From Ensifer adhaerens (lineage in GTDB: Bacteria; Pseudomonadota; Alphaproteobacteria; Rhizobiales; Rhizobiaceae), in contig NZ_JABEKT010000003.1 in the NCBI RefSeq assembly GCF_013283195.1, forward strand, positions 188,604 through 252,603: DNA of 64,000 bases. The letters are read 5' to 3'. Within the stretch, counting starts at the first letter, position 1. Every line of letters starts with the position of its first letter. Below the pieces are notes generated by a model, which searched no databases, was not told where the DNA came from, and saw only the letters and a list, made by a program, of their open reading frames with translations. Positions 317-63,796 of this stretch are shown one piece after another. Both the position numbers and the translations under genes were made by a program.

Positions 317-341
317 GGAACGAAGGCAGGGTTGCGCCGTT
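317..341 (+). promoter_or_regulatory. EcfG-type (general stress sigma) promoter
   Basis: GGAAC at 317-321 and CGTT at 338-341 are separated by exactly 16 bases. This is a perfect match to the alphaproteobacterial EcfG consensus GGAAC-N16/17-CGTT. It lies 27 bases before the DUF982 start codon, so the leader would be short, and it could also serve yihY 50 bases beyond that gene. Confidence 0.75.
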
Positions 342-367
342 ATCCTTGAAAACACGGGGACCGGACG

Positions 368-613
368 ATGATCGAAACTTGGAAAGAATGTGTCATTATC
401 CAGCTTCCCGATCTCGACGGAGTCCAGATCGTCTGGACGCCGGCACGTGCAGCTAGCCTGCTCGGCGAGAGCTGGCCGGTGGATCACGGCCAAGCATTTA
501 CGGAGGCACTCAACAAATGCACGGACGCGATGCTGGGCACCTACCCTTGGGAGCAAGCGCGCGCCGCATTCATCGAGGCGATAACAGAGGCTAAGATCAG
601 AAAATTCCAATAG
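368..613 (+). CDS. DUF982 domain protein
   Basis: An 81-residue protein of the DUF982 family, small proteins common and multi-copy in rhizobia with no established function. The family signature is visible: an N-terminal beta-rich part with a conserved W (QIVWTP), the AASLLGESWP stretch in the middle, then A..KC..A and the C-terminal ARAAFIEAITEA helix. Its length is typical. It lies directly behind a perfect EcfG-type promoter, and the spacing to the next gene (47 bases, same strand) allows cotranscription with the YihY-type gene. A role in stress adaptation is inferred only from the promoter. Confidence 0.85.
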   Translation: MIETWKECVIIQLPDLDGVQIVWTPARAASLLGESWPVDHGQAFTEALNKCTDAMLGTYPWEQARAAFIEAITEAKIRKFQ

Positions 614-660
614 GAGCAAGAATTCCGCACCGGGTCAACGCTCGGCCGAAGGAGCTTCTA

Positions 661-1755
661 ATGTCAGAAAAGCGAGGGTCAATAGATCCAGCGTCTGCAT
701 TGGCGATTGTCGCAATATCGATGATCGTGGGAGATCTACTGTGCTCCAAACACTTGAGGAGCACATCAAGCGAGATTTCCGCTTTCACCCCCACGCGGGC
801 ACAAGGTGACGAGAAACGGGGACGAACCGCGTCGGTTCCTGAGAAACTGCCCGCGCGGGGCTTGCGTGATGTATTTTGGCGGGTCGTCAACGAAATCAAA
901 GAGGACCGGATAGCGTTCGTGGCGGCAGCGGTGACCTTTTATCTAGTTCTTGCGTTGTTCCCTGCACTAGCCGCTCTGGTGTCCCTCTATGGGCTTGTGG
1001 CAGACGCTGGGATGATTTCGGAACATTTGGAAGACTTGGCAGTCATACTTCCCCCCGGAGCGTTCGAAATCTTCGCCGATCAGCTTCAAGCCCTGATCGT
1101 TCGTCGCGATGCCACCCTTGGGTTCGCGCTTGTTGTAGGGCTGGCGATCGCTTTCTGGAGCACCCGGAACGGCGTCCTTGCGATTTTCGAGGCGATGAAT
1201 GTCGCCTATGAAGAAAAAGAAAAGCGGGGTTTTTTCAAACTGAACTGTGTGGCGCTTGGCTTTAGCGTATGCGCAGTGTTTGCCGCGGTTTTCATGATAG
1301 GCGTTGTCGCATGGATCCCCACATTTTTGCAGTCAGTCTGGCTTGATCCCTGGAAGGAAAGCCTCGTGCTCGTTGCGCGCTGGCCCACCCTTCTCTTGGT
1401 ATCATTTATCGCGATCATTTCGATTTACCGGTTTGGCCCCAGCAGGCATCCTGCCAAACTAAGGTGGCTAACCTGGGGTGCTGCAATTGCGACGGTCGGA
1501 TGGGCAATGATGACGCTGGGCTTTTCATGGTATCTTGAAAATTATGCGAACTACGACGCTACATATGGGGCCCTTGGCAGTCTCGTCGGCTTTCTCATGT
1601 GGATCTGGCTTTCGGTCATTATTCTGGTGGTGGGGGCGGAGGTAAATGCGGAACTGGAGCACCAAACCGCCCGAGACACCACGACTGGCGCACCTCGACC
1701 CATGGGAGAGCGGGGCGCTCAGATGGCCGATACCATTGGAGAAATTCCTCGGTAG
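661..1755 (+). CDS. YihY/BrkB-family inner membrane protein
   Basis: A 364-residue integral membrane protein of the YihY/BrkB family (formerly misnamed ribonuclease BN). Members have about six membrane segments; here they run from roughly residue 85 to 330, starting with AAAVTFYLVLALFPALAAL, the family hallmark (FYL.LALFPA), and ending near GSLVGFLMWIWLSVIILVVGAE, followed by the usual NAEL.H tail. The first 60 residues are hydrophilic with one short hydrophobic stretch (ALAIVAISMIVGDLL), as in rhizobial members. The start is supported by GAAGGAG nine bases upstream. The transported or bound substrate is unknown for the family. Position behind DUF982 and its EcfG-type promoter suggests stress induction. 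Confidence 0.88.
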   Translation: MSEKRGSIDPASALAIVAISMIVGDLLCSKHLRSTSSEISAFTPTRAQGDEKRGRTASVPEKLPARGLRDVFWRVVNEIKEDRIAFVAAAVTFYLVLALFPALAALVSLYGLVADAGMISEHLEDLAVILPPGAFEIFADQLQALIVRRDATLGFALVVGLAIAFWSTRNGVLAIFEAMNVAYEEKEKRGFFKLNCVALGFSVCAVFAAVFMIGVVAWIPTFLQSVWLDPWKESLVLVARWPTLLLVSFIAIISIYRFGPSRHPAKLRWLTWGAAIATVGWAMMTLGFSWYLENYANYDATYGALGSLVGFLMWIWLSVIILVVGAEVNAELEHQTARDTTTGAPRPMGERGAQMADTIGEIPR

Positions 1756-2045
1756 CTTCTGCAACCGCCATACACCTTCGATGCGATTTGTCCTCCGCGA
1801 AATGGGCGCGCAACATCATATCGTGTCTCAAATCCGCTTGCCCTCCTTAATCGGCTGCTTGTGATCCCAACTCACCCTGTTAGGTTCTCTACCGTGGAAA
1901 GCTTCAATGGTCTGCTTGATCGAAAAGCGCTCTGAGTCGGTTCCCGCATGATTCGTTCTTTAGGGATTGCGCGCTCAACCCCTGGAGGCGACTTTCACCA
2001 GGGTGCGCTGATTGCTTGGGCCCGCATTCGCCTACCGGCTCGCCA

Positions 2046-2384
2046 TCACTGTGCGGACAGCAGTCGCGCCGTGGCCGAGGCGACTGCACGCTGAAGAATT
2101 TTTTGGAGAAAATAACTCGTCGTAAGCGCGGCAGCAATGCTCAGCCAAGTGTTTCGTTTACGGCGTGATGGCAAGACATGCTGCAAATTTGCCTCGCGCG
2201 GAACGTCATTCAACCGTGCACGCAGATCCGCAATTTCTCGCCTTAGTGCGGCGATCTGGCTTTCAACAGACGGTCTCCGCTTTGCCATCGCTGTATCGTT
2301 AGCTGAGCGATCATCATCAAGTTCAGCAAGATGCTCCCGCAACTGCGCCGGACTTTCGAAACCTCGTGTCCTGATTCTGGTCAT
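2046..2384 (-). CDS. Small coiled-coil membrane protein, unknown
   Basis: A 112-residue protein of unknown function. Residues about 35-65 form a charged heptad-like helix (SQIAALRREIADLRARL), probably a coiled coil. Residues about 80-108 contain a hydrophobic segment (TWLSIAAALTTSYFLQKIL) that looks like a single membrane anchor near the C-terminus. The start has a purine-rich AAAGGA upstream, and an EcfG-type promoter faces it 40 bases upstream, which argues that the frame is real. It would be a tail-anchored-like stress protein; nothing more can be said. Confidence 0.6.
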   Translation of the reverse strand: MTRIRTRGFESPAQLREHLAELDDDRSANDTAMAKRRPSVESQIAALRREIADLRARLNDVPREANLQHVLPSRRKRNTWLSIAAALTTSYFLQKILQRAVASATARLLSAQ

Positions 2385-2423
2385 CGGTGCGTCCTTTTGC
2401 TTTTCGTTGATTTGCAGCAGGGT

Positions 2424-2448
2424 AACCCGTGTATTCGCTCTAGGTTCC
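2424..2448 (-). promoter_or_regulatory. EcfG-type promoter (leftward)
   Basis: Read on the minus strand, GGAAC (2448-2444), 16 bases, then GGTT (2427-2424). It points at the coiled-coil membrane protein starting at 2384 and lies only 170 bases from another EcfG-type promoter firing the other way, so the two form a divergent pair. Confidence 0.65.
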
Positions 2449-2616
2449 CAATGCCGCCGGCGATCTCCCCAACCTCTGCACCCGAGCGTTCACTATATAC
2501 TGCCGAGCCTGCCGGACCTCCTTTGTCCTGACCCGGTGATGCATCGTAGCCGCCGTATCGTTTGGAGAGCATTCAATGGAATGAAGTTTCACCCGAGCAT
2601 CGTGCCGACCCTCCTC

Positions 2617-2641
2617 GGAACATTTCGCTTTAATGCCGGTT
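2617..2641 (+). promoter_or_regulatory. EcfG-type promoter (rightward)
   Basis: GGAAC at 2617-2621, 16 bases, GGTT at 2638-2641. It lies 40 bases before the first member of the four-copy small-protein family at 2682. Confidence 0.7.
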
Positions 2642-2681
2642 AGGGGCGTAGGCTTTCCTCCGCCAGGCCAGGGACTGGACA

Positions 2682-2936
2682 ATGAATTACGAAAAGATCG
2701 GCCGCGCTCTAGTGATGGTCCGCCTGCCGAGGTATCGGCTTCAGTTGGCCGAATTCAGATCAGCTGAGTTGTGCGATCTCCTAGAGAATTATGGACTCGC
2801 ACTCGTGAGGCGCGACGAGCTTCGATCACAGAATGGTTCAGATGATATGGTCGTCGAATACGAAGAACTGTGTGAATCGTTAGAGGATTACGCTATCAGG
2901 CTCATTTCGCGCGCCACTCCGCGCCTCGTTCTTTAA
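2682..2936 (+). CDS. Four-copy small protein family, copy 1
   Basis: An 84-residue protein I do not recognise by function. It is one of four paralogues in this window (others at 30456, 51539 and 59714). Shared features are the N-terminus M.YEK.GRA..M.RLP..R.QL, a central LLE.YGLA..(K/R)RDELR, then a YE.LC..LED...(K/R)(L/M)I helix and a C-terminal (S/T)PR(L/M)V. It is predicted to be mostly helical and soluble, with no membrane segment or signal peptide. Copy 1 is closest to copy 2. It is the only copy with a full EcfG-type promoter directly in front. The conserved charged surface and repeated retention suggest a real function; a regulator or adaptor role is speculation. Confidence 0.75.
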   Translation: MNYEKIGRALVMVRLPRYRLQLAEFRSAELCDLLENYGLALVRRDELRSQNGSDDMVVEYEELCESLEDYAIRLISRATPRLVL

Positions 2937-3249
2937 GGGGTCTTCGGCGCAGATATGCGTGTCCACTCGGCGCCTCGAATCGCCTGTCTATCTCTACCTG
3001 TAGGCTGAGGAGGCCGGTCTGTCTCATATTCTTCTGCGTCATTAAAGACGTTGCTTATGGAAGTCCAAGGGGGATCGAGCGGGACTGGGTGAGCCGAGTT
3101 GGGGGAACCCTCACCACTGATCGGTCCAAAATGGGCAACGGCCCCAGATTCGGAGATGAACGGGATCCGTGCAACATTCGGGCATATCCCAGATGGAGGC
3201 AAAAGATTTTCGAGCATGGAGCCGGGATCCGCATGAACATTGATCGAGA
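2937..3249. other. Region without a supported gene
   Basis: No recognisable coding sequence, terminator or promoter. Frames here do not look like known proteins, and the right edge leads into the decayed DUF4334 gene. Confidence 0.4.
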
Positions 3250-3670
3250 CGTTCAGCAGGTATCCCCCGGCGCCGCTCTCGCGTTCTTTGCGCGCTCGAC
3301 CCCATCGAGGCTCACACGCTCGTCGGCCTGTGGCGCGGGTCGGGGATTCCTACGGGCATCCACTGGACGGAGTGCTGGAAAACATCGGGCGGTTCGGCAA
3401 GCACTTCCATGCGAACATGCGCGCCGACGCCCTTTTGTTCGAAGCGGGAACCGACACGTTATTCCCCTAAGGTTGGCGGTTCGCCTGGGATTGATCGGCC
3501 GAACGTGGGGCGCGCGCCCTTGGCAAGCGATCCGCGGCGATGATTTATGACAGACAACCGATCACGGACCTGTTTCGCCGAAAAGATTATGACCGAGTAC
3601 TCGCGATGATGAGTTTACAGGGCGATCCGCGGCCTTACTTCTTTCCACTCGCGCCGCGAGCAGAGTTAAG
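3250..3670 (+). pseudogene. Decayed GXWXG/DUF4334 protein gene
   Basis: Pieces of a GXWXG-DUF4334 protein (a small family of unknown function) are found in order but in different frames: VSPGAALAFFAR, then LVGLWRGSGIPTG (the GxWxG motif), then HPLDGVLENIGRFGKHFHANMRADALLF ending at a stop, then IPLRLAVRLGLIG, and finally MIYDRQPITDLFRR...GDPRPYFFPL, the typical C-terminus. At least three frameshifts plus a deletion in the middle separate them, so no functional product can be made. It sits between the small-protein gene and the convergent DUF2188 gene. Confidence 0.7.
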
Positions 3671-3679
3671 TTCTTCCGA

Positions 3680-3967
3680 TCAGTCCTTGCCGCCTTCGGA
3701 CCCCGCACAGTGGTCCACAACTTCGGTTTCGGGTCGGTCCTTGCCATCAGAATGCTCTTGTCGCCAACGCCCCTGTCCGTCCTGATACTCTATCTCAACG
3801 TCATCACCCACACTCTGGTGTTCACGCGCGGCGATCAGAGCAGCTTGAAGGGCGTCGTCGTGCGAGGGAAAAGTCTCGGAATAGCCATCTCCCGATCTAT
3901 AGGCCCATCCACCGTCGTGAGGGACGATCTCATATTTCGTTGCGTTCACAACTCCCTCCAATTCCAC
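3680..3967 (-). CDS. DUF2188 domain protein
   Basis: A 95-residue protein of the DUF2188 family. The conserved core lies at residues 10-50: a beta hairpin with GGWAYRSGD, then an aromatic-containing FPSHDDALQAALIAAREH helix, followed by an acidic second hairpin (VEIEYQDGQGRWRQE). These proteins are frequent in rhizobial and soil-bacterial stress loci, and their function is not established. The C-terminal 20 residues are hydrophilic and variable. No EcfG-type promoter was found upstream of it. Confidence 0.8.
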   Translation of the reverse strand: MELEGVVNATKYEIVPHDGGWAYRSGDGYSETFPSHDDALQAALIAAREHQSVGDDVEIEYQDGQGRWRQEHSDGKDRPETEVVDHCAGSEGGKD

Positions 3968-4145
3968 CGTTGACGGTTTGCCACGCGTGCGCGCGTGTTG
4001 CTTTTCTGCCGCTACCGTACTGATGCAAATAGAGCAGTGAAATCAGTTTGCTATCCGAGTGGCAGATTCGATCGACGAGAAACATGGAAGGTCGCTTAAT
4101 AATCGAGATTCTTGACCGGCAGTGACAAATCGCAACTCTCCTCCA

Positions 4146-4170
4146 GGAACGAAACTGATTTGTCGAGGTT
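4146..4170 (+). promoter_or_regulatory. EcfG-type promoter before a tiny membrane peptide
   Basis: GGAAC at 4146-4150, 16 bases, GGTT at 4167-4170. The next start codon is at 4202, giving a leader of about 25 bases. Confidence 0.65.
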
Positions 4171-4201
4171 CAGAGTATGAAGCCTCAGGGGAACGGAAAA
4201 G

Positions 4202-4288
4202 ATGGAAAAGTCAATCAAGATGGTCGCGGTTGCAGTGTTAATCGCCTCCGCCGGCGTGCTGATCTGGCTGATTGGCCAGATCTACTGA
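4202..4288 (+). CDS. 28-residue single-span membrane peptide
   Basis: A tiny gene starting MEKSIKMVAVAV, with one hydrophobic segment covering residues 7-25 (VAVAVLIASAGVLIWLIG) and a TGA stop. A purine-rich GGGGAACGG lies before the start codon. The case for expression is the EcfG-type promoter at ideal distance rather than homology, which I cannot test. Stress-induced short membrane peptides are common in alphaproteobacteria. Confidence 0.55.
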   Translation: MEKSIKMVAVAVLIASAGVLIWLIGQIY

Positions 4289-4475
4289 GGGGTTTCGTCG
4301 CGAAGTCAGCACCAGCCATCAGTCTTACATGGTCCCCTTGATCGCCGCCCCACTCGTTGTTCCGAGCTCCATGGTAAACAGCGAGCAAAGTGGGATTTCG
4401 TAAGCAGACAGGCCGGCGGCGGAAGTAACCTTCTTCGCGCTAAACGCGCGCCTGATGCGGCACAGACAGGGGACT

Positions 4476-4757: not shown

Positions 4758-4767
4758 GTGTCACGCT

Positions 4768-8081: not shown

Positions 8082-8114
8082 GGCGATTCTTCAAAAAGCA
8101 TACATTCCCTCTCC

Positions 8115-8139
8115 AACATCCGCTGGCACCGTTTGTTCC
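8115..8139 (-). promoter_or_regulatory. EcfG-type promoter of the iron permease gene
   Basis: On the minus strand GGAAC (8139-8135), 16 bases, TGTT (8118-8115). The downstream start codon is at 8081. Confidence 0.68.
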
Positions 8140-8565: not shown

Positions 8566-8590
8566 GGAACATTTCCCATGAGAGGCAGTT
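8566..8590 (+). promoter_or_regulatory. EcfG-type promoter
   Basis: GGAAC at 8566-8570, 16 bases, AGTT at 8587-8590. It lies about 80 bases before the start codon at 8672. Confidence 0.6.
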
Positions 8591-8671: not shown

Positions 8672-9142
8672 ATGACATACATTGCATCTCCCAGGACCCA
8701 AACGGGCACTGCAGAGCGACTCACCGATTGTTACGAGTGCGTTTCGTCCACACTCGCGGTTCACCGCCCGTCGGGCGCGTTCTCAAAATTTGACACGGAG
8801 TTGATTGCTGCGGCGGTTGAGGCGGGGTGGGGTGAAGGCGAAATACGGGAAGCTCTAGATAGTATCCGGTCAGGCAATGCACTCGTAGACCCGGCGAGTA
8901 GCGGGGGGCCCGCACATCATGCGGCGACTCCGCCGTCTTTCGAACCTGACTCGCCTGACGCATCGAACGGTTCACAGGAGGGCCGCGAGTCAGCGCAGGG
9001 ACTACACGAGAGCGCTAAAATGGAAGAGCGACGTGTCGAACGCCAAAAAGGAAGCCCATTGGCCAAGGGAAAAGACCGCTTTGAGGAGCGATCCCGAAGC
9101 TCTGACGGAAGAAGTGCAGCAGAGAAGCAAAATCCAGAATGA
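8672..9142 (+). CDS. Hydrophilic unknown protein
   Basis: A 156-residue protein without a family I recognise. Residues 30-65 form a plausible small helical domain (SKFDTELIAAAVEAGWGEGEIREAL). The remaining C-terminal part is disordered and charged, rich in S, E, K and R. The start (ATGACATACATT) has GAAGCGAGGC upstream. Expression is suggested by the EcfG-type promoter upstream. The low-complexity tail resembles that of stress-related hydrophilins, but this is only an impression. Confidence 0.5.
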   Translation: MTYIASPRTQTGTAERLTDCYECVSSTLAVHRPSGAFSKFDTELIAAAVEAGWGEGEIREALDSIRSGNALVDPASSGGPAHHAATPPSFEPDSPDASNGSQEGRESAQGLHESAKMEERRVERQKGSPLAKGKDRFEERSRSSDGRSAAEKQNPE

Positions 9143-12039: not shown

Positions 12040-12064
12040 GGAACAGTTGGGGCCTTGACGGGTT
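12040..12064 (+). promoter_or_regulatory. EcfG-type promoter of the PRC-barrel gene
   Basis: GGAAC at 12040-12044, 16 bases, GGTT at 12061-12064. The start codon follows at 12098. Confidence 0.72.
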
Positions 12065-12097: not shown

Positions 12098-12400
12098 ATG
12101 GATCATTCCAACCATGTTCGATTGTCCGCCGATCAGCTCACACCCGGTGTGTTGGAAGGCGCGACAGTATACGGTGCAGATGACGACAAAGTGGGCCAAG
12201 TCGATCATGTTCACGCCAGCGGCGCAGGTACCAGCGTCGTTATCGATGTTGGCGGTTTCCTCGGTATCGGCGCAAAACCGGTATCCGTTCCGCTGGATGA
12301 ACTTGAGTTTATGCGGGACGAAGCGGGTGAAGTGCACGCGATCACGCATTGGACGAAAGATCAGCTGAAGGAAATGCCTGAGCACCGCGACCGAGACTGA
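12098..12400 (+). CDS. PRC-barrel domain protein
   Basis: A 100-residue protein made of a single PRC-barrel-like domain. The sequence runs LEGATVYGADDDKVGQVDHV, a second strand pair with VVIDVGGFLGIGAKPVSVPLDELEF, and a final DEAGEVHAITHWTKDQLKEMP, the typical rhizobial arrangement. Such small PRC-barrel proteins are frequent members of the general stress response in alphaproteobacteria and are thought to mediate protein contacts; the molecular role is unknown. The start is preceded by GAAAAGGA. A promoter upstream and a hairpin terminator directly downstream make it a monocistronic unit. Confidence 0.9.
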   Translation: MDHSNHVRLSADQLTPGVLEGATVYGADDDKVGQVDHVHASGAGTSVVIDVGGFLGIGAKPVSVPLDELEFMRDEAGEVHAITHWTKDQLKEMPEHRDRD

Positions 12401-13114: not shown

Positions 13115-15754
13115 TCACGCTGGGCGGCTCTTTCTTTTTGCTAGTCGCCTGATCGCCTGTTGAAGGGGTCGTTCCGCCTCACCATAGTCCTTCCAGGCGT
13201 CTGTCTTCGCAAGGAGCGCCGGCACCGTGCGCACCGTAAACCGCTTGGGATCGAGGTCGGACTTCACCTGTGTCCAGGTAAGCGGCATCGACACTGTCGC
13301 GCCTGGACGCGCACGCGGCGACAGCGGCGCCACAGCAGTTGCCATGCGATCGTTGCGGAGGTAGTCGAGGAAGATCTTGCCACCGCGAAGGCTCTTGTTC
13401 ATCTTGATGAGGTAGCGGTCGGGATTGTCGCGCGCCATCTGCTGACAGACGTCGTGCGCAAAACCCTTGGCCTCGGCCCATGCGAGAGGCTTACGCTCGT
13501 TGCCGGCGAGCGGAGTGACGACATGCAATCCCTTGCCACCCGTAGTCTTGCAGAAGCTCACAAGACCCAGCTCATTGAGCCTGTCACGCATCTCACGCGC
13601 GGCGGCAACCACCTTCGAAAAAGGCACGTCGGGTCCTGGATCAAGATCGAACACCAGCCGGCCTGGCACTTCCGGCTTGCCGAGTTCGCAATTCCACGGA
13701 TGAAATTCGATGCCACCGATCTGGGCGATCGCCGCGAGCCCTTCAATCCGGTCGATTTGCAGGTAAGGCTTCTTATCGCCGTAGACCTTCACCAGTTCGA
13801 CAAGGTTTGAGGTGCCGGGCATCGCATGGCGCTGGAAAAACTGCTCTCCACCGATACCATCGGGTGCTCGAATGATCGAACACGGCCGACCTTTGATGTG
13901 CTCAATGAGCCAGACGCCGACGGCTTCATGATAGCGGGCAAGGTCTTCTTTTGTGACCGGTCGACCGTCCCCGGCATCGGGCCATAGCGACTTCTCGGGA
14001 CTGGAGATGAGGACGCCCATCACGTCGACTTTCGCGCCTTGGCGACGCGAAGGTTTGTGTTTGGTCACCAAGACAGGTTCCACCGATTTCGCGTTGGTGG
14101 GCGGCGCCGGCTCTTCCGTCTCGACCTCGCTGGCCGGCTTATCTTCGCGCAGGCCTTTGAATGAAGCTTGGCGAACGAGACCGTCCCCGGTCCACCCTTC
14201 GAATTCGATTTCGGCGACGAGCTCGGGCTTCAACCACGCAACGTCGCCCTGCTTTTTCGGAGCGCCGATACCGGTGAACGGTGACTTCGCCGACTCCAGT
14301 GCCTGCAGTTTCGGAAGCAGAATCTCAACTTTCCGGGCGGCATAGCCGGTTCCGACACGACCGACATACACCAAACGATCGGCGCGGTTCACGCCCACCA
14401 GTAAGGACCGGAACTTGCCATTGGTCTTGGCGTAACCGCCGATCACGACTTCGTGGCCCGCACGGCATTTGGATTTCGCCCAGGCGTGGGTGCGGCCCGA
14501 TTGATAGATTGAACCCGCCTGCTTTGAGATAACGCCTTCGAGATGCAACTTACAAGCGGAGCGCAGAACCGCATCACCACCAGATTCGAAATGCTCGACG
14601 TAGCGGATGCGGGGATTATCGCCAGCGTTGGCGAGCAGATTCTGCAACCGCTCTTTACGCTCTAGCAATCGCATCGACCGCAAATCTTGACTGCCGTCGA
14701 ACATCAGGTCGAACGCGAAATAGACGAGGTTGCCTGTCTTCCCTTCCGACAGGGCCGCCTGAAGTGCGGCAAAATCCGGCGCGCCGTTCTCGTCGAGCGC
14801 GCAAATCTCACCATCGATGATACCATCCGGCAGTCCGGACGCTACATCGGCGATCTCCGGATACTTCTCTGTCCAATCGAGACCCTTGCGCGTCTTCAGC
14901 GTCGCCGTTGCCTCGGCAATACGCATCTGGATGCGATAGCCGTCGAACTTGATCTCGTGCAGCCAATCATCGCCGGCAGGTGGTCGGGAAACTTTCTCGC
15001 AAAGCTGGGGATCGATGAAATCGGGGAGGACGGAGGTGGTCAAGGTCGCGAGATCCCCACGCGACCCTTGCTCATGCCGGTCGGCTGCCGCTCCATATTT
15101 GCTGTCCCAGGTCGCATCGGCCTCGGCAGCGACATTCGCCATGATAAATGGCTGCGGCTTTCGGCCCCTGCCCTCGGCGATTTTCTCCATGGTGCGGCCA
15201 GAGGCCACCGAGGTGGCGTTCTGCTCAAGGATAGCATCTCCATGCGCGTCAACGGAGTGAGCGTCATGGTGCTTGATCAACAGCCAATTGGTCCGTTTCC
15301 CCCCATCGCGATCGTTGCGCATGCGGACGAGGACGAAGCTGCCGCACAGGCGCTTACCTTCCAGCGTGAACTTGAAGTCCCCCTTTCTCAGGGCCTCTTC
15401 CGGTGACTTCCTGCCTTCCGGCTCCCAGTAACCCCGATCCCACAACATAACGGTGCCGCCACCATATTGGCCCTTCGGGATCGTACCTTCGAAGTCGCCA
15501 TAGTCGAGCGGGTGGTCTTCGACTTCGACAGCCAGCCGCTTATCGTGTGGATCAAGCGAAGGTCCCTTGGTCACCGCCCAGGATTTGAACACGCCGTCGA
15601 GTTCTAGCCGGAGATCATAGTGGAGCCGGGTAGCGTCGTGCTTCTGTATCACAAAACGTCGACGGTTCGACGGCTTGACATGGGCCTCACCGCTGGGCTC
15701 GTCGGTCTTCTTAAAGTCGCGCTTGGCACGATATTTTTTGAGATTGTTGGTCAT
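13115..15754 (-). CDS. ligD: DNA ligase D (PE-LIG-POL)
   Basis: An 879-residue LigD, the multifunctional enzyme of bacterial non-homologous end joining. Domains in order are a 3'-phosphoesterase at about residues 30-190 ([29 protein letters not shown]), an ATP-dependent ligase at about 230-530 (adenylated lysine in EIKFDGYR, then DGEICALD and [10 protein letters not shown]), and a primase/polymerase at about 590-870 ([26 protein letters not shown] with the metal-binding [14 protein letters not shown]). All catalytic motifs look intact. I chose ATG 15754 over an upstream TTG. The usual partner Ku is not encoded in this window. A second, broken ligD lies at 55 kb. Confidence 0.95.
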
Positions 15755-18334: not shown

Positions 18335-18359
18335 AACTGCAAGGGATTGCCTTTGTTCC
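18335..18359 (-). promoter_or_regulatory. EcfG-type promoter of the membrane-stress operon
   Basis: On the minus strand GGAAC (18359-18355), 16 bases, AGTT (18338-18335). It precedes the three overlapping genes 18285-16315. Confidence 0.7.
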
Positions 18360-19144
18360 GCCAGCACTGTGGTGGCCGTGCCACTTCGCTTTTTGGCTCG
18401 AACGCCCCGGGGGATCGAGGCAGATACCTTCCGGTCCGGGCCACACTACTTACTCGTAATCCGCCGCAGTGCTGACTAAATCCGGCGAACGGATTTGGTT
18501 TGCTGCGGGTCGTGAATAGGCCGCCGGCATAAAACTCCGGGGAAGTGTCGTCGATTTCAATGCGCCGACCAAAATGAGCGGGACCGGGCGGCGGCGGCAC
18601 CGCTGCCAGAGCCGGTTATCGCGAACGGTAGCGGCTCCCGATTTGGTCGCCGCCTCCGGAGATGTTGTTCTTACGACCAATACACCACGGCGGAGCCGCG
18701 CGCGCTCCGCATCGATCTGCACAGCCTTTCGGCCCGAGGCGGATGACCAGGACGGCTGCAGCCGCGATACAGACCATGTGCCACATCCAGCCGGCTGAAA
18801 ACCCTCCCGTCACATCGTGCAGGCTTGACCGGATCAACGGTGGGCAGGCGCTTGCAAAAATGACGCTTTTTGCCACGCGCGCCGACAGGCTTGCGCGCGA
18901 TAGCGGGGCTAACGAACTCGCCATGTGTGGTGAAGTTCCCTAATGGGACTTCAGTCTGACTCGTCTTGGCAAAGGTCTGAAGTCGATTGTTACGCCGTCG
19001 CGCTACGCTAATTTCTTCCTGAGCCCATGCCAAATGAAGACCCGAGAAGAAACATGGGCGGTACCGGCCCAGAGCCGTGCGATCGTCCCTGCGAGCGGCT
19101 CTGGTGTCCTTCCCCGATTATCGGTCACCATGGGAGATATCGTT
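18360..19144. other. Gene-free stretch
   Basis: Nearly 800 bases with only overlapping short frames; no protein family, terminator or repeat recognised. Confidence 0.4.
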
Positions 19145-22783: not shown

Positions 22784-22808
22784 AACTCGTCGCTTCGGCA
22801 ACTGTTCC
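22784..22808 (-). promoter_or_regulatory. EcfG-type promoter of the oxidoreductase operon
   Basis: On the minus strand GGAAC (22808-22804), 16 bases, AGTT (22787-22784). The SDR start is at 22654, so the leader would be about 120 bases. Confidence 0.62.
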
Positions 22809-30455: not shown

Positions 30456-30710
30456 ATGGATTATGAGAAAATCGGTCGCGCTCGCATGATGGTCCGGCTG
30501 CCCAAACATCGGCTCCAACTGGCAGAGCTTAGAACTGCTGCGATCTGCGAACTACTGGAGAATTATGGGCTCGCACTGACAAAACGTGATGATCTGCGCG
30601 TCCAGGGAGGTCCGCCGCACCTTATCGCGCAATATGAAGAACTATGTCAGGCCTTAGAGGATAATGCTGTCAAGCTTATCGGGCGTGCGACTCCGCGGCT
30701 CGTTCGCTGA
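30456..30710 (+). CDS. Four-copy small protein family, copy 2
   Basis: An 84-residue paralogue of the proteins at 2682, 51539 and 59714: MDYEKIGRARMMVRLPKHR, then LLENYGLALTKRDDLR, YEELCQALEDNAVKLI and TPRLV. It is closest to copy 1. Its stop codon lies one base before the small membrane-protein gene at 30712, so the two are cotranscribed; copy 1 lacks that neighbour. GGAAC at 30368 followed by GATT at 16 bases is a weaker EcfG-like match. The 300 bases upstream (30152-30455) hold nothing else recognised. Confidence 0.78.
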   Translation: MDYEKIGRARMMVRLPKHRLQLAELRTAAICELLENYGLALTKRDDLRVQGGPPHLIAQYEELCQALEDNAVKLIGRATPRLVR

Positions 30711-32152: not shown

Positions 32153-32177
32153 GGAACAATGACTGTGCCAACGAGTT
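32153..32177 (+). promoter_or_regulatory. EcfG-type promoter of candidate small RNA, copy A
   Basis: GGAAC at 32153-32157, 16 bases, AGTT at 32174-32177. No protein start follows; a terminator hairpin comes about 40 bases later. The same promoter occurs in the related copy at 54870. Confidence 0.65.
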
Positions 32178-32183: not shown

Positions 32184-32242
32184 AATCATCAATGTCTCCC
32201 AAACACTCTCGCATGGCCCCTTCCCACAGGGGCCTATTTTTT
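32184..32242 (+). ncRNA. Candidate stress-induced small RNA, copy A
   Basis: A transcript of about 60 bases is predicted from the EcfG-type promoter to a hairpin GGCCCC (32215-32220) / GGGGCC (32229-32234) followed by TATTTTTT. Between them is an unstructured stretch with a ctccc motif, the kind of C-rich seed seen in stress small RNAs of the group (for example GsrN of Caulobacter). The copy at 54901 differs in loop length and internal bases but retains promoter, ctccc and terminator. The strands overlap the 3' end of a toxin remnant. No expression evidence can be given. Confidence 0.45.
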
Positions 32243-32524
32243 CAGCTTGAATACATCGACATTATCAGCCAGTTGACCTGGCATACTGCGCCGAAAACGG
32301 CCAGGTGCTTCCGGCTGCTTCATCGCTCCGGAAGCGAGTGCGCAACAGGCGATGACGCGGTTTTCTTCACACACGACGAATGTTCGCGAGGCGCCCCCTA
32401 TCTGATTGGTACGCGCCCGACGGCGCAGCCAGTCGTCCAGTTCGGGCACGCCGGAATTGAAGTCGTCCAGGCCGTGATGGTCGGCCAGTGGCGTCGGCGC
32501 ACTTAGAGTGACGCCTCGTCCCAC
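32234..32524 (-). pseudogene. GNAT toxin (TacT-like) truncated and fused to a ligD tail
   Basis: Residues 1-80 are the N-terminal half of a TacT-type GNAT acetyltransferase toxin (LSAPTPLADHHGLDDFNSG, LDDWLRRRARTNQIGGASRT, FVVCEENRVIACCALASGA). After RFRRSMPG it passes in frame into QLADNVDVFKLKK, which is the C-terminus of a DNA ligase D (compare the ligD remnant ending near 54962). The acetyl-CoA binding motif (QxxGxG/A) and the catalytic half are absent, so it cannot acetylate. It overlaps the antitoxin gene by 22 bases. Confidence 0.8.
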
Positions 32525-37435: not shown

Positions 37436-37445
37436 GGCCAGATCC

Positions 37446-51379: not shown

Positions 51380-52060
51380 GCCGGGATCCGGGAAGTTTAG
51401 GCCGGCAAGTTGCTCCGCTTCCCAAGCTTTGGGCGTGACGAGCGCGAGTTCCGCAATATTGGTCCGCCGGTTCAAGGACTTGTTGCTACTTTCGTTTTGG
51501 TGGAGGACAATCTGGTCCGAGGGAGTGAGGAGCGGGCGATGGATATCGAAAAGGTCGGACGGGCCCGCCTGATGATGAGGCTGCCGAGGCACCGGAAGCA
51601 GCTCTCTGACGCAAATTTCTTGGCGATTACCGATTTGCTGGAAGCCTACGGCCTGGCCGCAATAAAGCGCGACGAGTTACGTGAGCAACCGACGCCAGAC
51701 CCTTCGATCTTGGCCGAGTATGAGGATCTCTGTCAGAAGCTGGAAGACGACGTCATTAAGATGATCGCCTCCGTGAGCCCCCGTATGGTCCGCTAGGTCA
51801 GCACTCCCCTGGATGCATTGAAAATCTAGCAGGCGGTCCCAATGGGCTCGTGCCGGTTGCCATCACTCCCCATCGCCGTATCCGATCTCCAGAATTTGGC
51901 CTCGGCAGTGTCTGCCAGGGCCCGGCAGACCGCGGCGTCTGCTTGCGGGATCGCATACAACGAGGTGTTCGGGACCTCGCCCCTCACCTCCCCGCCCTTA
52001 CCAGTGACCGCGCAATATCGATGATATCGTCGCGAGCGGCCGTTGGATCGTCCTTCGACC
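51380..52060. repeat. Duplicated segment, copy 1 (partner 59549-60228)
   Basis: About 680 bases comprising the leader, the small-protein gene at 51539 and the 3' end of the LysR gene match 59549-60228 with about 10-15 per cent differences by eye. In copy 2 the match ends inside the LysR tail, where a broken IS256 begins. Confidence 0.85.
51539..51796 (+). CDS. Four-copy small protein family, copy 3
   Basis: An 85-residue paralogue: [51 protein letters not shown] and SPRMV. It differs from copy 4 in only 8 positions and from copies 1 and 2 in about half. GAGGAG lies eight bases before the ATG. No EcfG-type promoter is seen ahead of it, unlike copy 1. It is followed on the opposite strand by the LysR gene. 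Confidence 0.8.
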   Translation: MDIEKVGRARLMMRLPRHRKQLSDANFLAITDLLEAYGLAAIKRDELREQPTPDPSILAEYEDLCQKLEDDVIKMIASVSPRMVR

Positions 52061-54869: not shown

Positions 54870-54894
54870 GGAACAATGACTGTCCCAGCGAGTT
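54870..54894 (+). promoter_or_regulatory. EcfG-type promoter of candidate small RNA, copy B
   Basis: GGAAC at 54870-54874, 16 bases, AGTT at 54891-54894. Same context as the site at 32153. Confidence 0.65.
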
Positions 54895-54900
54895 ATCAGT

Positions 54901-54961
54901 TATCATCGATGGCTCCCAATCCTCTGGCATACTCGGCCCCTTCCGCAGGGGCCTCTTTTTT
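54901..54961 (+). ncRNA. Candidate stress-induced small RNA, copy B
   Basis: About 60 bases from the promoter to the hairpin GGCCCC (54935-54940) / GGGGCC (54948-54953) with TCTTTTTT. It contains ggctcccaat at the position of the ctccc motif in copy A. The hairpin stem is unchanged while the loop length differs, which argues for selection on structure. On the opposite strand it overlaps the very end of the ligD remnant. Confidence 0.45.
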
Positions 54962-55590
54962 CAGCTCGAATACATCGACATTATCAGCCGGTTCGCGCAG
55001 GCCCTTGAACGACGCGTGGCGCAGCTTTCCGTCTCTGGTCAGCTTGGTATAGGTGATCTCGGTGACGTAGGCCGGTCACAGAACACCGCATTCTTGCACA
55101 TGAGTGCCACCGGCGGCGATTTCATCCTGTCGGTGAAGCCCGGCCCAACCCCACCCACATAGACCAGGCCGGTCGCCCCGCCGCGCCGCCAGCAAAAGCC
55201 GTGAGATCGCACTGGGCACGTTCGTAGACGGTTCAAACCCGACAACGACAAAGCTGTCGCTTGAGCACACTTCAATTTCAGCCAGTCACCCTTCCGTCCC
55301 GAGCGATAAGGAGCACACTGGTTGTTGGCGATGACACCTTCAAGCCAAGCTTGCAGGCTTGCGCCACGATAGCCGCACCCTGCCCTTCGATCGCCTCCGA
55401 AAGCCAGATCCTCGCATTTGCGCCGCCGATCGCCTCCTCAAGCATATTCGTCGCTCTTGCTGCTCTATGCCGCGCAAATCGTGACCATCGAAGTAGAGCA
55501 GATCGAACGCGAAAAACCGCGCCTCCGCGGCAACACGCTTGCGCTTGAACCATAACGCGGCTGTCCGGGTCAGGAAGGTCTTCACTCATC
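54962..55590 (-). pseudogene. Second ligD: decayed ligase-domain remnant
   Basis: Minus-strand frames give, from the 5' side, FAFDLLYFDGHDLRGIEQQE, then IRLSEAIEG-like (WLSEAIEGQGAAIVAQACKLG), FVVVGFEPST, SRLLLAARRGD, LVYVGGVGPGFTDRM, and finally [23 protein letters not shown]. These are the C-terminal half of the ligase domain of a LigD but scattered over three frames with at least four frameshifts. Its last codons recur fused to the toxin remnant at 32234. The intact ligD at 13115 is a different, longer type (with polymerase). Confidence 0.8.
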
Positions 55591-59063: not shown

Positions 59064-59066
59064 CTT

Positions 59067-59432: not shown

Positions 59433-59548
59433 AATCTCTAAAGCATCCGGCGCAAACACCGTAGCCGGGCGCCAGACAAAACCGAAGCGGGAACTAGGAG
59501 CGAGCTCTGACGATCTGACCTGCCCTGAAATCCCATTCGGCAGTAATT

Positions 59549-60228
59549 AGAGCCGGGATCCGTGTTGTTTAGGCCCCGCAATTTGCTCCTCTTCCCCCCA
59601 GCTTTCGTCCTGACGAGCGCGAGTTCCGCAATATTGTTTCGCCGGCTCAAGGTCTTGTTGCTACTTTCGTTTTGGTAAAGGACAATCTGGTCCGAGGGAG
59701 TGAGGAGCGGGCGATGGATTTCGAAAAGGTCGGGCGGGCCCGCCTGATGATGAGGCTGCCAAACCACCGGAAGCAGATCTCTGATGCCAACTTCTTGGCG
59801 ATTACCGATTTGCTGGAAGCCTACGGTCTGGCAGTCATAAAGCGCGACGAGCTACGTGAACAACCGATATCAGACCCTTCGATCTTGGCCGAGTATGAGG
59901 ATCTCTGTCAGAAGCTGGAGGACGACGTCATCAAGACGATCGCCTGCGTGAGCCCCCGTATGGTCCGCTAGGTCACCACTCCCATGATTGCAATGAAAAT
60001 CTAGCAGGCTGTCCCAATGGGCTCGTGCCGGTTGCCAGAACGCCCCATCAGTTTCCGTTCTTCAGAATTTGGCCCCGGCAGTGTCTGCCAGGGCCCGGCA
60101 AGCCGCGGCGTCTGCTTGAGGGACCGCATACAACGAGGTGTTCGGGACCTTGCCCCTACCTGCCCGGCCTCACCAGCGACTTGGCGATATCGATGATGTC
60201 GCACCCGAGCAGTCGTCGGATCATCGAA
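59549..60228. repeat. Duplicated segment, copy 2 (partner 51380-52060)
   Basis: Contains the leader, small-protein copy 4 and the 3' end of a LysR gene (ending near 60228). Beyond that the LysR sequence is lost and IS256 begins, so this copy was truncated by the insertion or by a deletion next to it. Confidence 0.85.
59714..59971 (+). CDS. Four-copy small protein family, copy 4
   Basis: An 85-residue paralogue ([56 protein letters not shown]), almost the same as copy 3. Leader and ribosome site (GAGGAG) are those of copy 3. The reading frame is intact although the neighbouring LysR copy is not, which suggests selection on the small protein itself. Confidence 0.8.
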
Positions 60229-60243
60229 CCGCAGACGAGTGAG

Positions 60244-61451
60244 ATGCGCGGCGCGATCACTCTTACTCAAAAGCGAAGGGCCAAATCTGAGCACCATCCA
60301 AAATATTTGTTGCGCGAGATGATCGGCTTTGCCGCTGAACGGCTGATGGAGCTGGAGGTCGGCTCAGCTACGGGTGCAGGGTTCGGGGAGAAGAACCCGA
60401 TGCGGCTTGCACAGCGCAACGGCTACCGTGACCGCGATTGGGAGACGCGAGCTGGCACGGTCGAGCTTCGCATTCCGAAGCTGCGCAAGGGCAGCTACTT
60501 TCCGAGCTTCCTCGAACCGCGCCGCATGGCAGAGAAGGCTCTGACGGCTGTTATCCAGGAGGCGTATATCCAAGGAATATCGACGCGGTCGGTCGATGAT
60601 CTGGTCAAAGCCATGGGGATGAGCGGCATCTCCAAAAGCCAGGTGTCGCGGCTGTGCGAGGAGATCGACGTCAAGGTGAAGGCGTTCCTTGACCGCCCCA
60701 TTGAAGGCGAATGGCCATATGTTTGGGTCGACGCGACCTACCTCAAGGTCCGGCGTGGCGGCCGGATCGTCTCGGTCGCCGTCATCATCGCGGTCGGCGT
60801 CAACAGCGACGGTCGGCGCGAAGTCCTGGGTATGGAAGTCGGCACATCGGAAGCTGAGCCAATCTGGACGGAGTTTTTGCGTCGGCTGACACGCCGAGGT
60901 CTACGCGGGGTGAAGCTGGTTGTCTCCGATGCGCATGAGGGCATCAAAGCTGCCGTTTCCAAGGTTCTCAACGCCACATGGCAGCGGTGCCGCGTTCACT
61001 TCATGAGGAATGTGCTGGCACATGCCGGAAAGAGCGGGAGGCGAGTTGTCTCCGCCTTCATCGCTACAGCCTTTGCCCAGGAGACGCCGGAGGCGGCCAG
61101 CGCTCACAATGGCGCAGCGTCGCCGACCAGATCAGACCAAAAGTGCCGAAGCTCGCCATGATCATGGATGACGCTGAAGGCGATGTGCTCGCCTACATGA
61201 CCTTTCCGAAAGAGCACCGGGCGAAGTTACACTCGACGAATCCGATTGAGCGTCTCAACGGCGAAATCAAACGCCGCACCGAGGTCGTCGGCATCTTTCC
61301 CAACGATGAAGCCATCGTCCGTCTCGTCGGCGCATTGCTCATGGAGGCGAACGATGAGTGGACCGTCCAGCGAGGCAGATACCTGACCCTTGAGACCATG
61401 GCTCAAATGAGCGATGATCCCCAAATCAGTTTGCCCGCTGTGGCCCGCTGA
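60244..61451 (+). mobile_element. IS256-family transposase with a frameshift
   Basis: A transposase of about 400 residues in two frames. First frame: [57 protein letters not shown] (first catalytic Asp), [16 protein letters not shown] (second Asp) and [11 protein letters not shown]. Near 61100 (SAH...) the frame changes and continues [33 protein letters not shown] (catalytic Glu), VVGIFPNDEAIVRLVGA to the stop. Terminal repeats were not identified. The frameshift probably inactivates it. Confidence 0.88.
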
Positions 61452-61709
61452 TAATCGCTCCGACCTGGGGCGGAAAGCACGGCAATCAGCCGCCAGCTAC
61501 ACCACCTACGTGGACACGATCCTGCCGGCTCGTCTGCAAGTTTCCGAAACTGTTCAAATGCGGAATACTGATCGCGCCTGTCTCTAGGCGAACCGTGTTC
61601 GAATTAGGTTCGCCGCTTGTTATTCTCGCCCTAGTTTGCGGTTTGACACAGCCGTCAGCTACCAAGGCCCGCAGCCTCAACTTTTGCGACTGCTACCGCT
61701 GGCGCCTCC

Positions 61710-61847
61710 CTAGTCACCTCCAGAACCGCTCTTGCCGCCACCGCTATCCTTGCTGGTGGATTCGCGCTTGTCATCGTTCTTGTGGCTTTGCTCGCTGGCC
61801 TTGCGATGTTGTTCGCTGCTGCCGCCTTGGCCGCCTTAATTGGGCAT
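61710..61847 (-). pseudogene. Small Gly/Ser/Lys-rich hydrophilin-like gene with early stop
   Basis: Minus-strand ATG 61847, with AAGGAG upstream, reads M-P-N and then a TAA; the same frame continues GGQGGSSEQHRKASEQSHKN, DDKRESTSKDSGGGKSGSGG to a TAG. The composition (KGG/EHRxAS pattern) is that of small stress-related hydrophilic proteins. Either the gene was broken by this stop or the third/fourth codon is misread. Confidence 0.5.
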
Positions 61848-61897
61848 CTTCGTTCTCCTTGAGTTGCATCAGGCCGTGGATCGGTCGGCGCACTCCA

Positions 61898-61921
61898 AAC
61901 GACGGAAGCCCACAATGTTCC
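61898..61921 (-). promoter_or_regulatory. Weak EcfG-type promoter (15-base spacing)
   Basis: On the minus strand GGAAC (61921-61917), 15 bases, CGTT (61901-61898). The elements are perfect but the spacing is one below the consensus. It precedes the hydrophilin-like gene at 61847. Confidence 0.4.
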
Positions 61922-62044
61922 CGGCGTAAAGAAGAAGGATGTGAAATTGGGTCTTCCAACGCATCCAACGTGTCGTGCTGGGAGCCGCACTGGAACATCA
62001 ATACGCCGCGAGAGTAGGGAGAGAATTGATCCCAACCGATCAAG

Positions 62045-62545
62045 TCAGAAAGGCCTTCGTCGCCAGTCTTCGCAGTGCCCAAGCAATGAAGAACCAGACG
62101 CTCAGCACGATGAAGCCGCAAGATTGAACGTATCGAGACCCATCCCGAAGTGGCAACCGGGCTGCAGCAGCACATTTCGGAAACGGGGGTTCAGAGCCGG
62201 CGGCTCGAAGATGTGCTTGCCACCCTGAACGAACACCTTTCCCAAATGAAGGATATTGCTCTCTCGTTCACTGGGGTGATGGCCGCCTTCTCACACGGTT
62301 CCAGACGACAAAATGCTGAAAAACTTATTCGCCAACTTTGCCTTCGAGACTTCGAAATCGCCGCCTACCGGTTTCGGCTGACGATCGCCGAAGCCGGCGG
62401 CTACACCGCAGGGGTGTTGGTGCTCCAGACCAATCTCGCTGAGGAGCCGGCGATGGCGGGCTGGCTTGAAGATAATCTCATCGGCGTGGCGACTAGCATT
62501 TTATCCCTCCGCGAAGTCGGTGGAAAGCAAAGGTGTTACGATCGA
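62045..62545 (+). pseudogene. DUF892 (YciE-like) ferritin-like protein, decayed
   Basis: Pieces in order: AQAMKNQTLSTMKPQ then, in another frame, IERIETHPEVATGLQQHISE, RRLEDVLATLNEH, MKDIALSFTGVMAAFSH, and FEIAAYRFRLTIAEAGGYT, VLQTNLAEEPAMAGWLEDNL. Between FSH and FEIAAY the expected HTVPDDKMLKNLFANFAF is encoded in the +1 frame (around 62295-62345), so two opposite frameshifts flank it. The N-terminus is lost, and after SLREVGGK the protein continues with unrelated sequence. The family binds metals and is stress-associated. Confidence 0.75.
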
Positions 62546-62872
62546 GCCGTTCCCATAAGAAGACGAGTTTCATGCCGCCTCGGATTTAATGATGTGTCTG
62601 AAGGAAGTTGGTGCGCGTTTGCTGTGACCGGTTTCGCATTTGAAGCATGCGATGGAGATTTCCTGTAGTCTGGCAGATCTTCCCCCAATACAGGCCTTGC
62701 CCTTCTTCGAAAACCCATCGACAAGGAAGCCTCGATCGCGCCGTCAGCGACACTGACCCGCTAGGTCCAGGAACAGAGCTTCGACATAAACCCACACCGG
62801 AACGGAATCCCGACCCCTGCCACCTCGATCGATCGTAGAGGTGGGGAGGCATTGGCGGCGCCAACAGTTTAG
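62546..62872. other. Region without a supported gene
   Basis: Short frames on both strands, none recognised. Confidence 0.4.
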
Positions 62873-63127
62873 CTATCCCATTGACCGAACGGACCGCGCC
62901 CGGACAGCAGTTAATATGGCCGCAAGTTCGTGGCTGAGTGCGTTTTGAACCGCAAAGGCAGAGCTTGGGACCACACCTGGATCCTCCTCATGGTCCTGCA
63001 CGACCAAGTCGTCTTCCATGCCAGAAACAAGGTCGTCCCAATCCTGAGGCCGGGTGCGACGTAAAATGCATAGAATGGCGATTAAAAGCTCCCTGTGCGC
63101 CGAGATCTGAAATTCCATTCTTTCCAT
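62873..63127 (-). CDS. Small stress-type unknown protein
   Basis: An 84-residue protein (MEFQISAHRELLIAILCILR, DWDDLVSGMEDDLVVQDHEE, SAFAVQNALSHELAAILTAV), acidic and helical. ATGs at 63139, 63127 and 63118 are in frame; I chose 63127 because GGATGGAG lies six bases before it and the promoter leaves a short leader. I recall similar rhizobial hypotheticals but no function. An EcfG-type promoter lies 34 bases upstream. Confidence 0.65.
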   Translation of the reverse strand: MERMEFQISAHRELLIAILCILRRTRPQDWDDLVSGMEDDLVVQDHEEDPGVVPSSAFAVQNALSHELAAILTAVRARSVRSMG

Positions 63128-63160
63128 GGGGCGCTCCATCCGTGATAAATGCTTCAGTAG

Positions 63161-63185
63161 AACTCCCTTGAAACGGCCTGGTTCC
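63161..63185 (-). promoter_or_regulatory. EcfG-type promoter (leftward)
   Basis: On the minus strand GGAAC (63185-63181), 16 bases, AGTT (63164-63161). It drives the gene starting at 63127. Confidence 0.68.
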
Positions 63186-63463
63186 CCTAAGACGACCGGC
63201 GACCGGATGGGTCGCGATCATCCAGCCAGCGCTATTCTGGGAGAGTTCTTTCAAATGTCTGTCGCATGGACAGGACGACCTGGTGCGATTTCGCCACGAG
63301 GAGAAATCACAACCCGCTAAGGGCATCCCGGCACATCAGTTCGGATGAAGGGTTATGAAAGAACAGCGCCGCAGCGCCGCCGATTAGGCCGCGAGATGGC
63401 AATGCAGGACGTTCGATAGGTTCTGATGCATGACGAAACATCGACGTCCTCATGTCCGAGGAA

Positions 63464-63676
63464 CTGACGCTGCGCGAGTAAAGCCGCATCAAGACCGCCC
63501 TGCGAATGGGCAGGCCTGCAACGATCAAGGCCCTGGCCGGCTCCGACTTTACATTCCAACCCTCGCTCGACCGAGATCGCATCTTCACTCTGGCGCAGCT
63601 TGGCTTCGTCGACCGCCACGAAGCAGTTCATTTCCTCGGTCCGCCGGGAACGGGAAAGAGCGTGGGCTTGCCGTGA
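63464..63676 (+). mobile_element. IS21-family IstB remnant
   Basis: The frame reads LTLRE, a TAA in place of Q, then RIKTALRMGRPATIKALAGS, DFTFQPSLDRDRIFTLAQLG and VHFLGPPGTGKS, the Walker A region of an IstB-type helper ATPase. After GKS it changes to VGLP and stops, so Walker B and the rest are gone. The start of the gene and istA are missing. Confidence 0.8.
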
Positions 63677-63771
63677 CGGGTAACGGCTGAGATCTTCTCG
63701 GTGACGCGCATGCGGACGGAGTCAGGCCCTTCTTGGTCGTCGTTCGCGGATGCTGCATATGGAGTGCCTTC

Positions 63772-63796
63772 GGAACTTTACCGGCGCCAACAGGTT
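63772..63796 (+). promoter_or_regulatory. EcfG-type promoter before the last gene
   Basis: GGAAC at 63772-63776, 16 bases, GGTT at 63793-63796. The start codon follows at 63824. Confidence 0.68.

Follow-up and report, generated by a model that had tools for sequence, protein, structure and literature searches.

Putative EcfG-type promoters with a relaxed first −10 base cluster on a plasmid-like contig of Ensifer adhaerens

The window analyzed here, a 64,000-nucleotide stretch of Ensifer adhaerens DNA, covers positions 188604–252603 of a 743-kb contig (C14) in a genome of 7.07 Mb and 20 contigs. It carries a set of exact matches to GGAAC-N17-GTT, which is the same as GGAAC-N16-xGTT, namely a GGAAC −35 box followed, after a 16-base spacer, by the four-base −10 box xGTT, as at EcfG-type promoters. 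An earlier, sequence-only reading had listed 13 such sites and assigned them to a scattered general-stress regulon. All 13 are exact matches at the positions given for them (Table 1). The list was correct as far as it went, but it omitted three further exact matches, at 839(−), 18939(−) and 41503(+), which bring the total to 16. Two of the 16, 839(−) and 41503(+), are intragenic; the other 14, among them every listed site, lie between genes. Genes were called with our own script, and the intergenic and upstream counts given here and below inherit its errors.

The GGAAC box and a −10 box ending in GTT are present in 13 of 13 listed sites by design of the search. All 13 also share the 16-base spacer, and other spacings were unremarkable in the window: when the distance between GGAAC and GTT was varied from 10 to 25 bases, 16 matches were found at spacing 17 and 0–5 at each of the 15 other spacings. 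From the density of matches outside C14, 1.84 would be expected per 64 kb, as the earlier estimate of about two by chance had it, and the Poisson probability of at least 16 is 1.5e-10. Dinucleotide shuffles, with spacings 16 and 17 pooled, yielded a mean of 3.2 matches vs. 19 observed, and 0 of 100 shuffles reached 19.

A plausible start codon in the correct orientation lies past GTT at 11 of the 13 listed sites, as had been claimed, although the distance is 26–129 bases rather than 27–150. A ribosome-site-like stretch was detected by a simple test at 10 of these 11 starts, the iron permease gene 8081 being the one that lacks it. The other two sites, 32153 and 54870, had been described as preceding a short terminator-ended element, and a hairpin followed by a T run is indeed present behind both.

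Table 1. Exact motif matches and candidate small RNAs in the window (x, first base of the −10 box; ORF, open reading frame; SDR, short-chain dehydrogenase/reductase).
Feature	x	Position	Strand	Remarks
EcfG-type promoter	C	317..341	+	exact match; before DUF982 gene 368-613 (Pfam DUF982 1.7e-22)
EcfG-type promoter	G	2424..2448	-	exact match; ORF 2384-2046, ATG 39 bases on, no Pfam family
EcfG-type promoter	G	2617..2641	+	exact match; before 84-codon gene 2682-2936
EcfG-type promoter	G	4146..4170	+	exact match; before 28-codon ORF 4202-4288
EcfG-type promoter	T	8115..8139	-	exact match; low-affinity iron permease 8081-7728, 33 bases on (Pfam Iron_permease 5.3e-45)
EcfG-type promoter	A	8566..8590	+	exact match; ORF 8672-9142 (156 codons), ATG 81 bases on
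EcfG-type promoter	G	12040..12064	+	exact match; PRC-barrel gene 12098-12400 (Pfam PRC 8.3e-7)
EcfG-type promoter	A	18335..18359	-	exact match; gene run 18285-16315 (unknown, holin_3_6-like, DUF3618; Pfam)
EcfG-type promoter	A	22784..22808	-	exact match; SDR oxidoreductase 22654-21779 (Pfam adh_short_C2 3e-53)
EcfG-type promoter	A	32153..32177	+	exact match; before candidate small RNA copy 1
EcfG-type promoter	A	54870..54894	+	exact match; before candidate small RNA copy 2
EcfG-type promoter	A	63161..63185	-	exact match; ORF 63127-62873, ATG 33 bases on, no Pfam family
EcfG-type promoter	G	63772..63796	+	exact match; before gene starting at 63824
Additional exact match	A	18915..18939	-	intergenic, without a good gene behind it
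Candidate small RNA copy 1		32185..32243	+	start inferred; ends in hairpin and T run; -14.6 kcal/mol, z -3.4 vs. shuffles
Candidate small RNA copy 2		54902..54966	+	start inferred; hairpin stem identical to copy 1, T run; z only -0.7

Three window genes (SDR, gene 18285 and iron permease) were searched for in 16 genomes of the genus, and the DNA upstream of the relatives was scanned for the motif. It was present at 18 of 27 other loci, while the 15 other spacings pooled gave two hits, one of which overlapped a counted site. The motif preceded gene 18285 in 7 of the 7 other genomes where the gene was found, the permease gene at 5 of 9 other loci, and the SDR gene at 6 of 11 (5 of 5 at ≥60% identity and 1 of 6 at 46–51%); four distant SDR paralogues (35–40% identity), all without the motif, were excluded from the count. 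Upstream of gene 63824 it was found 52–53 bases away in all four relatives examined, of 37 records with a tblastn match. For the four genes together, 22 of 31 counted loci have the motif. Across relatives the boxes are kept and the spacers vary. The promoters had also been taken as support for several tiny genes. This holds for 63824, whose relatives have the same promoter. For the 28-codon ORF 4202 no tblastn relative was found in a plasmid collection, and at 156 codons ORF 8672 is hardly tiny. The region around one relative of gene 63824 (E. adhaerens plasmid p1, 236–276 kb) contains ligD, a second ATP-dependent DNA ligase gene, alkB, hsp20, groESL and a DUF982 gene, and is a stress and DNA-repair gene neighborhood; a ligD-like gene lies at 13115–15754 in the window.

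In the whole genome the motif has 263 matches vs. 264 for the reversed pattern, so a uniform genome-wide excess was rejected; the excess lies on C14. This contig holds 81 of the 263 matches, with 11–29 at each of the 15 other spacings, when 21.4 would be predicted from the rest of the genome (P = 6.5e-23). Outside C14 the density is 28.8 matches per Mb, about the control level (28.3, from the other spacings on C14), and on the chromosome contig (C1) an excess is visible only as CGTT enrichment in intergenic DNA. The comparison of density with the rest of the genome that the earlier reading had proposed, run here with the exact motif, does not bear out an even scatter: the sites are concentrated on C14 and densest in the window and at about 463–587 kb. 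On C14, 59 of 81 sites are intergenic (2–10 for the control spacings), and 29 have a confidently called, properly oriented gene no more than 250 bases downstream (0–5 for the controls). The highest control value in each case (10 and 5) was obtained at spacing 18, itself permitted by published EcfG consensuses. Protein relatives point to the E. adhaerens group, an E. adhaerens plasmid aligns at 94% with 87% of the initial 20 kb of C14, and C14 appears plasmid-like.

The first base of the −10 box separates C14 from the chromosome. Among the 13 listed sites x is A in six, G in five, C in one and T in one, and at the intergenic sites of C14 it is C in 14 of 59, G in 23, A in 12 and T in 10. The chromosomal sample consisted of the first 100 sites on C1, ending 19 kb before the contig end and with opposite-strand overlaps counted separately. 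Thirty-four of these are intergenic, and C precedes GTT in 24 of the 34 (Fisher P = 2e-5 vs. C14) and in 19 of the 66 intragenic ones. In 200 kb around the C1 PhyR-NepR locus described below, together with contig C17, C was found in 6 of 6 intergenic sites of spacing 17. At spacing 18, the base is C at 7 of the 10 intergenic sites from 780 kb of C1 plus C17 and at 5 of 10 from C14. There are two promoter classes in one genome, chromosomal CGTT and C14 NGTT, and the distinction is new here: we recognized no description of such a chromosome/plasmid split or of C14-type clustering in the literature on EcfG promoters, islands and plasmids included, as judged largely from titles and the beginnings of abstracts.

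NepR was found at two loci, C17:123109 and C1:1156600. PhyR-like genes adjoin both, and on C17 an EcfG sigma gene adjoins NepR. A further sigma gene lies on C14 at 504443–504955(−), and its product is 71.7% identical to the protein encoded at 1405336–1405833 of Sinorhizobium meliloti pSymB. The latter was identified as RpoE5 because the published rpoE5 promoter (PMC6180224) sits 93 bases upstream; by sequence, the C14 sigma is its ortholog. In a tree, Rhizobium etli EcfG2, whose branch is long, groups with the RpoE5-type sigmas (support 91/97), and the C17 EcfG falls outside this group. Across the genome, 21 loci score above the cut-off of the sigma70-ECF (extracytoplasmic function) model, some of them non-ECF sigmas. 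A NepR-like gene is described as adjoining the sigma gene in S. meliloti, but there is no NepR hit on C14 and none was recognized by eye in the ORFs at ∼504 kb.

Other partial PhyR-like genes were observed on C14. The gene at 564547–564825(+) encodes a protein of 92–93 codons with only a PhyR_sigma2-type match (Pfam 5.8e-7, above cut-off), and an N17 site at C14:564488 lies directly upstream of it. A second product of 92–93 codons, from 526234–526515(−), matches PhyR_sigma2 at 5.3e-5, below the Pfam cut-off. These two PhyR_sigma2-only proteins could act as NepR decoys. A third gene, 496125–496733(+) (202 codons), encodes a receiver-like domain first (below the Pfam cut-off) and a PhyR_sigma2-like domain second. 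This order is opposite to that of S. meliloti RsiB1 and RsiB2, whose receiver is C-terminal (PMC3616915).

We consider that the 13 sites are, with a probability of roughly 0.88, mostly genuine ECF15 (EcfG-type) promoters that form one arm of the general stress response on the plasmid-like C14. An EcfG-type regulon is well supported because the matches are specific to one spacing, are placed between genes in the proper orientation and recur across species, and because the genome encodes PhyR, NepR and EcfG. By the known pathway, stress would activate PhyR, active PhyR would pull NepR off the EcfG sigma, and RNA polymerase bearing that sigma would then start transcription a few bases after NGTT. 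The predicted targets are the iron permease, the PRC-barrel protein, the SDR oxidoreductase, the DUF982 protein, several small proteins and the two copies of a terminator-ended short RNA. In S. meliloti, a PRC-barrel gene and an SDR gene are among those raised by RpoE2 (PMC6180224), and in E. canadensis, DUF982 and SDR genes adjoin the RpoE5-type sigma gene. We infer that the sites are transcribed in a stress-dependent manner by an ECF15 sigma, which may be the C17 EcfG, the C14 RpoE5-type sigma or both.

Several observations weigh against this reading: (i) the canonical C of CGTT is absent in 12 of the 13 listed sites; (ii) about 2 of the 16 window matches are expected by chance, and two of them fall within genes; (iii) 9 of the 27 relatives lack the motif; (iv) two of the 18 hits, both at permease genes, are far upstream (−360 and −396), the one at −396 belonging to a distant relative (33% identity); and (v) judged by sequence alone, the reader may be some other ECF sigma with a preference for GGAAC at −35. 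Of the original proposal the promoter type is retained. The sites are not evenly scattered and mostly lack the canonical C (1 of 13 has it), and more than one stress sigma factor may be involved, as the C17 EcfG is accompanied by an RpoE5/EcfG2-type paralogue on C14.

There is about an even chance that both classes are read by the canonical EcfG (RpoE2 type) and that constraint on the first −10 base is weaker on the plasmid. The Methylobacterium consensus accepts C or G before GTT (PMC4814048), a quoted S. meliloti RpoE2 site is printed with lower-case cg (PMC6011840), and S. meliloti RpoE2 activates many genes, rpoE5 among them (PMC6180224). The base also varies at one promoter: permease relatives in other genomes have C in three cases and G in two, and the window has T. 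However, chromosomal sites of the same genome prefer C, and at three other promoters the base is constant in other genomes. All 6 SDR promoters have A (as does the window), all 4 relatives of gene 63824 have G (likewise the window) and all 7 promoters of gene 18285 have G (window A). This resembles a kept choice, although shared ancestry would also produce it.

The alternative is a parallel plasmid regulon, with NGTT sites on C14 read mainly by the C14 RpoE5/EcfG2-type sigma and chromosomal CGTT sites by the canonical EcfG. We regard it as possible but less probable than a canonical EcfG that reads both. The within-genome difference in the −10 base favors it, and so do relaxed sites around orthologous sigma genes. 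Seven Ensifer sigma loci from six genomes (≥60% identity, among 80 matches kept) were inspected, and all seven have 4–13 intergenic sites each, 55 in total with C in 13, when other spacings average 0.3–1.2 per locus. A 40-kb stretch of E. canadensis pT173c has 18 intergenic sites, five of them with C; spacing 18 (a 17-base spacer) is raised there too, with nine sites, eight of them intergenic. The corresponding 40 kb of S. meliloti pSymB has seven intergenic sites (C in two). In 50 kb of R. etli p42f that include EcfG2, 13 intergenic sites (C in two) were counted, with 0–2 at spacings 12–16 and 18–23, and few lie on either side of this region (none in 30 kb, two in 50 kb). Over whole records, motif vs. 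reversed counts are 118/41 for pT173c, 108/52 for pSymB, 113/28 for E. adhaerens p1 and 52/37 for pCTYH.Ch1_2. R. etli EcfG1 and EcfG2 each favor their own promoter, and the CGTT motif occurs in just 1 of 19 EcfG2-dependent units, for which no EcfG2 motif was found in that study (PMC3892343).

Two of the three target genes tested are mostly found in genomes that have the sigma. Of the 16 genomes compared within the genus, 11 carry an ortholog of the sigma (≥61% identity), this one included (10 of 15 others). An SDR relative (≥46% identity) occurs in 10 of 10 genomes with the sigma vs. 1 of 5 without (P = 0.004), and gene 18285 in 7 of 10 vs. 0 of 5 (P = 0.026). The 46% limit was set after the table had been seen, the P values ignore relatedness, the SDR hit in one genome (G011) is the sigma gene's neighbor, and a shared plasmid alone may be the source of the co-occurrence. 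For the permease, co-occurrence with the sigma is not clear (6 of 10 vs. 1 of 5, P = 0.28), and one genome without an RpoE5 ortholog (G015) nevertheless has a GGTT site upstream of the permease gene. A general autoregulated SDR-rpoE5 operon was rejected, since just 4 of 10 loci have an N17 site in the 1.6 kb before the sigma gene (at one locus 741 bases were searchable), and the same count speaks against the parallel regulon.

Further observations weigh against it. Overexpression of S. meliloti RpoE5 raised a single putative target (PMC6180224), and the phyR promoter is recognized by both R. etli sigmas (PMC3892343). No exact N17 motif occurs, on the gene's own strand, upstream of ecfG2, whose promoter responds to EcfG2 itself, or of katG, whose expression falls in the EcfG2 mutant (PMC3892343); the two N17 sites upstream of R. 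etli ecfG2 are in the opposite orientation. The use of katG and ecfG2 as NGTT examples is thus unsupported. We rank the reading of both classes by canonical EcfG above a class proper to the plasmid sigma because of the single RpoE5 target, the lack of the motif at ecfG2 and katG, the shared phyR promoter, the G015 permease site and the looser published consensuses; that both sigmas act is also possible.

It is improbable that a different ECF group reads the sites, such as ECF26, whose S. meliloti member is RpoE6. Of the 40 genes that RpoE6 raises, 27 belong to the RpoE2 regulon as well, and its motif has been described as similar to the ECF15 one, but at −35 the consensus for ECF26 reads GGAATA instead of GGAAC (PMC6180224). 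The many loci above the sigma70-ECF cut-off would leave room for such a reader. Chance matches in AT-richer intergenic DNA have a negligible probability: the G+C content of the window (58%) is below that of several other parts of C14, but enrichment at one of 16 spacings tested, intergenic placement and recurrence across species rule out a random origin of the set, even if two or three single sites may be chance.

The elements at 32153 and 54870 are candidate small RNAs, each with a putative promoter and, 35–40 bases on, the beginning of a terminator-like hairpin. The two copies are 87% identical over 131 bases, promoter included, and a third, partial match lies at C14:722072. A search of 15 other genomes of the genus did not find the promoter part; only the final 46–56 bases of the element match, in 2 of the 15. 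Rfam gave no match in the window at gathering scores. Close to copy 1, a TacA1-like antitoxin gene (32784–32503(−), 9.5e-14) is followed by an ORF at 32524–32234(−) without a Pfam match. The 3′ end of this ORF is convergent with copy 1, and ∼40 bases of it belong to the duplication shared with 54870. Two Ensifer relatives show a similar arrangement, with a strong terminator-like hairpin no more than 25 bases behind an N17 site (L121, 16630(+); L124, 12163(+)).

The 84-codon gene behind the site at 2617 belongs to a family with four members of 84/85 codons in the window (2682–2936, 30456–30710, 51539–51796 and 59714–59971) and a fifth at C14:294218. Among the four, only 2682 has the motif; 30456, 51539 and 59714 are without it. 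The family of gene 2682 was found in 16 plasmid records (15 Ensifer and one Sinorhizobium), and one of the 84/85-codon paralogues, searched against Pfam, gave no match.

About half of completed alphaproteobacterial genomes are said to carry at least two EcfG-like sigma genes (PMC3892343), and the reading range of the plasmid-borne ones is unsettled. A dense, recurring promoter class linked to these sigmas gives a specific motif and target lists in several species, two laboratory organisms among them. It also hints that a single accessory replicon can hold a large share of a stress regulon, which could then be gained or lost in one step. A broader proposal, which we put forward as tentative and would sooner doubt than accept, is that in Rhizobiaceae the RpoE5/EcfG2-type sigmas, which are plasmid-borne wherever their replicon is known here, read a promoter class of their own, GGAAC-N16-NGTT, and travel together with a target set the size of a replicon. 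In that case the chromosomal CGTT arm of the general stress response would be joined by a second, mobile one, and this would account for the lack of an EcfG2 motif in R. etli.

The set can be compared with known systems. With the EcfG1/RpoE2 (ECF15) regulon of R. etli and S. meliloti it shares the GGAAC −35 box, the 16-base spacer, the four-base −10 box, the PhyR-NepR-EcfG genes in the genome and similar targets. In contrast with that regulon, the C14 sites mostly lack the C of CGTT, use mainly one spacing and are concentrated on one contig. The candidate small RNA resembles ReC64, the EcfG1-driven R. etli small RNA, in being short and having an EcfG-type promoter, but ReC64 adjoins phyR (PMC3892343), whereas the element described here occurs in two copies, at other places, and is not matched in Rfam. 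The R. etli p42f EcfG2 and S. meliloti pSymB RpoE5 systems are alike in that the C14 sigma is related to both and NGTT sites surround EcfG2. They differ in that no promoter motif is assigned to EcfG2 (PMC3892343) and one putative target to RpoE5 (PMC6180224), while a C14-type motif is proposed for them here from sequence. Methylobacterium extorquens likewise has several EcfG copies and, as mentioned, a consensus that is loose before GTT; its paralogues are said to read similar promoters (PMC4814048), whereas in E. adhaerens the chromosome and C14 are split between CGTT and NGTT.

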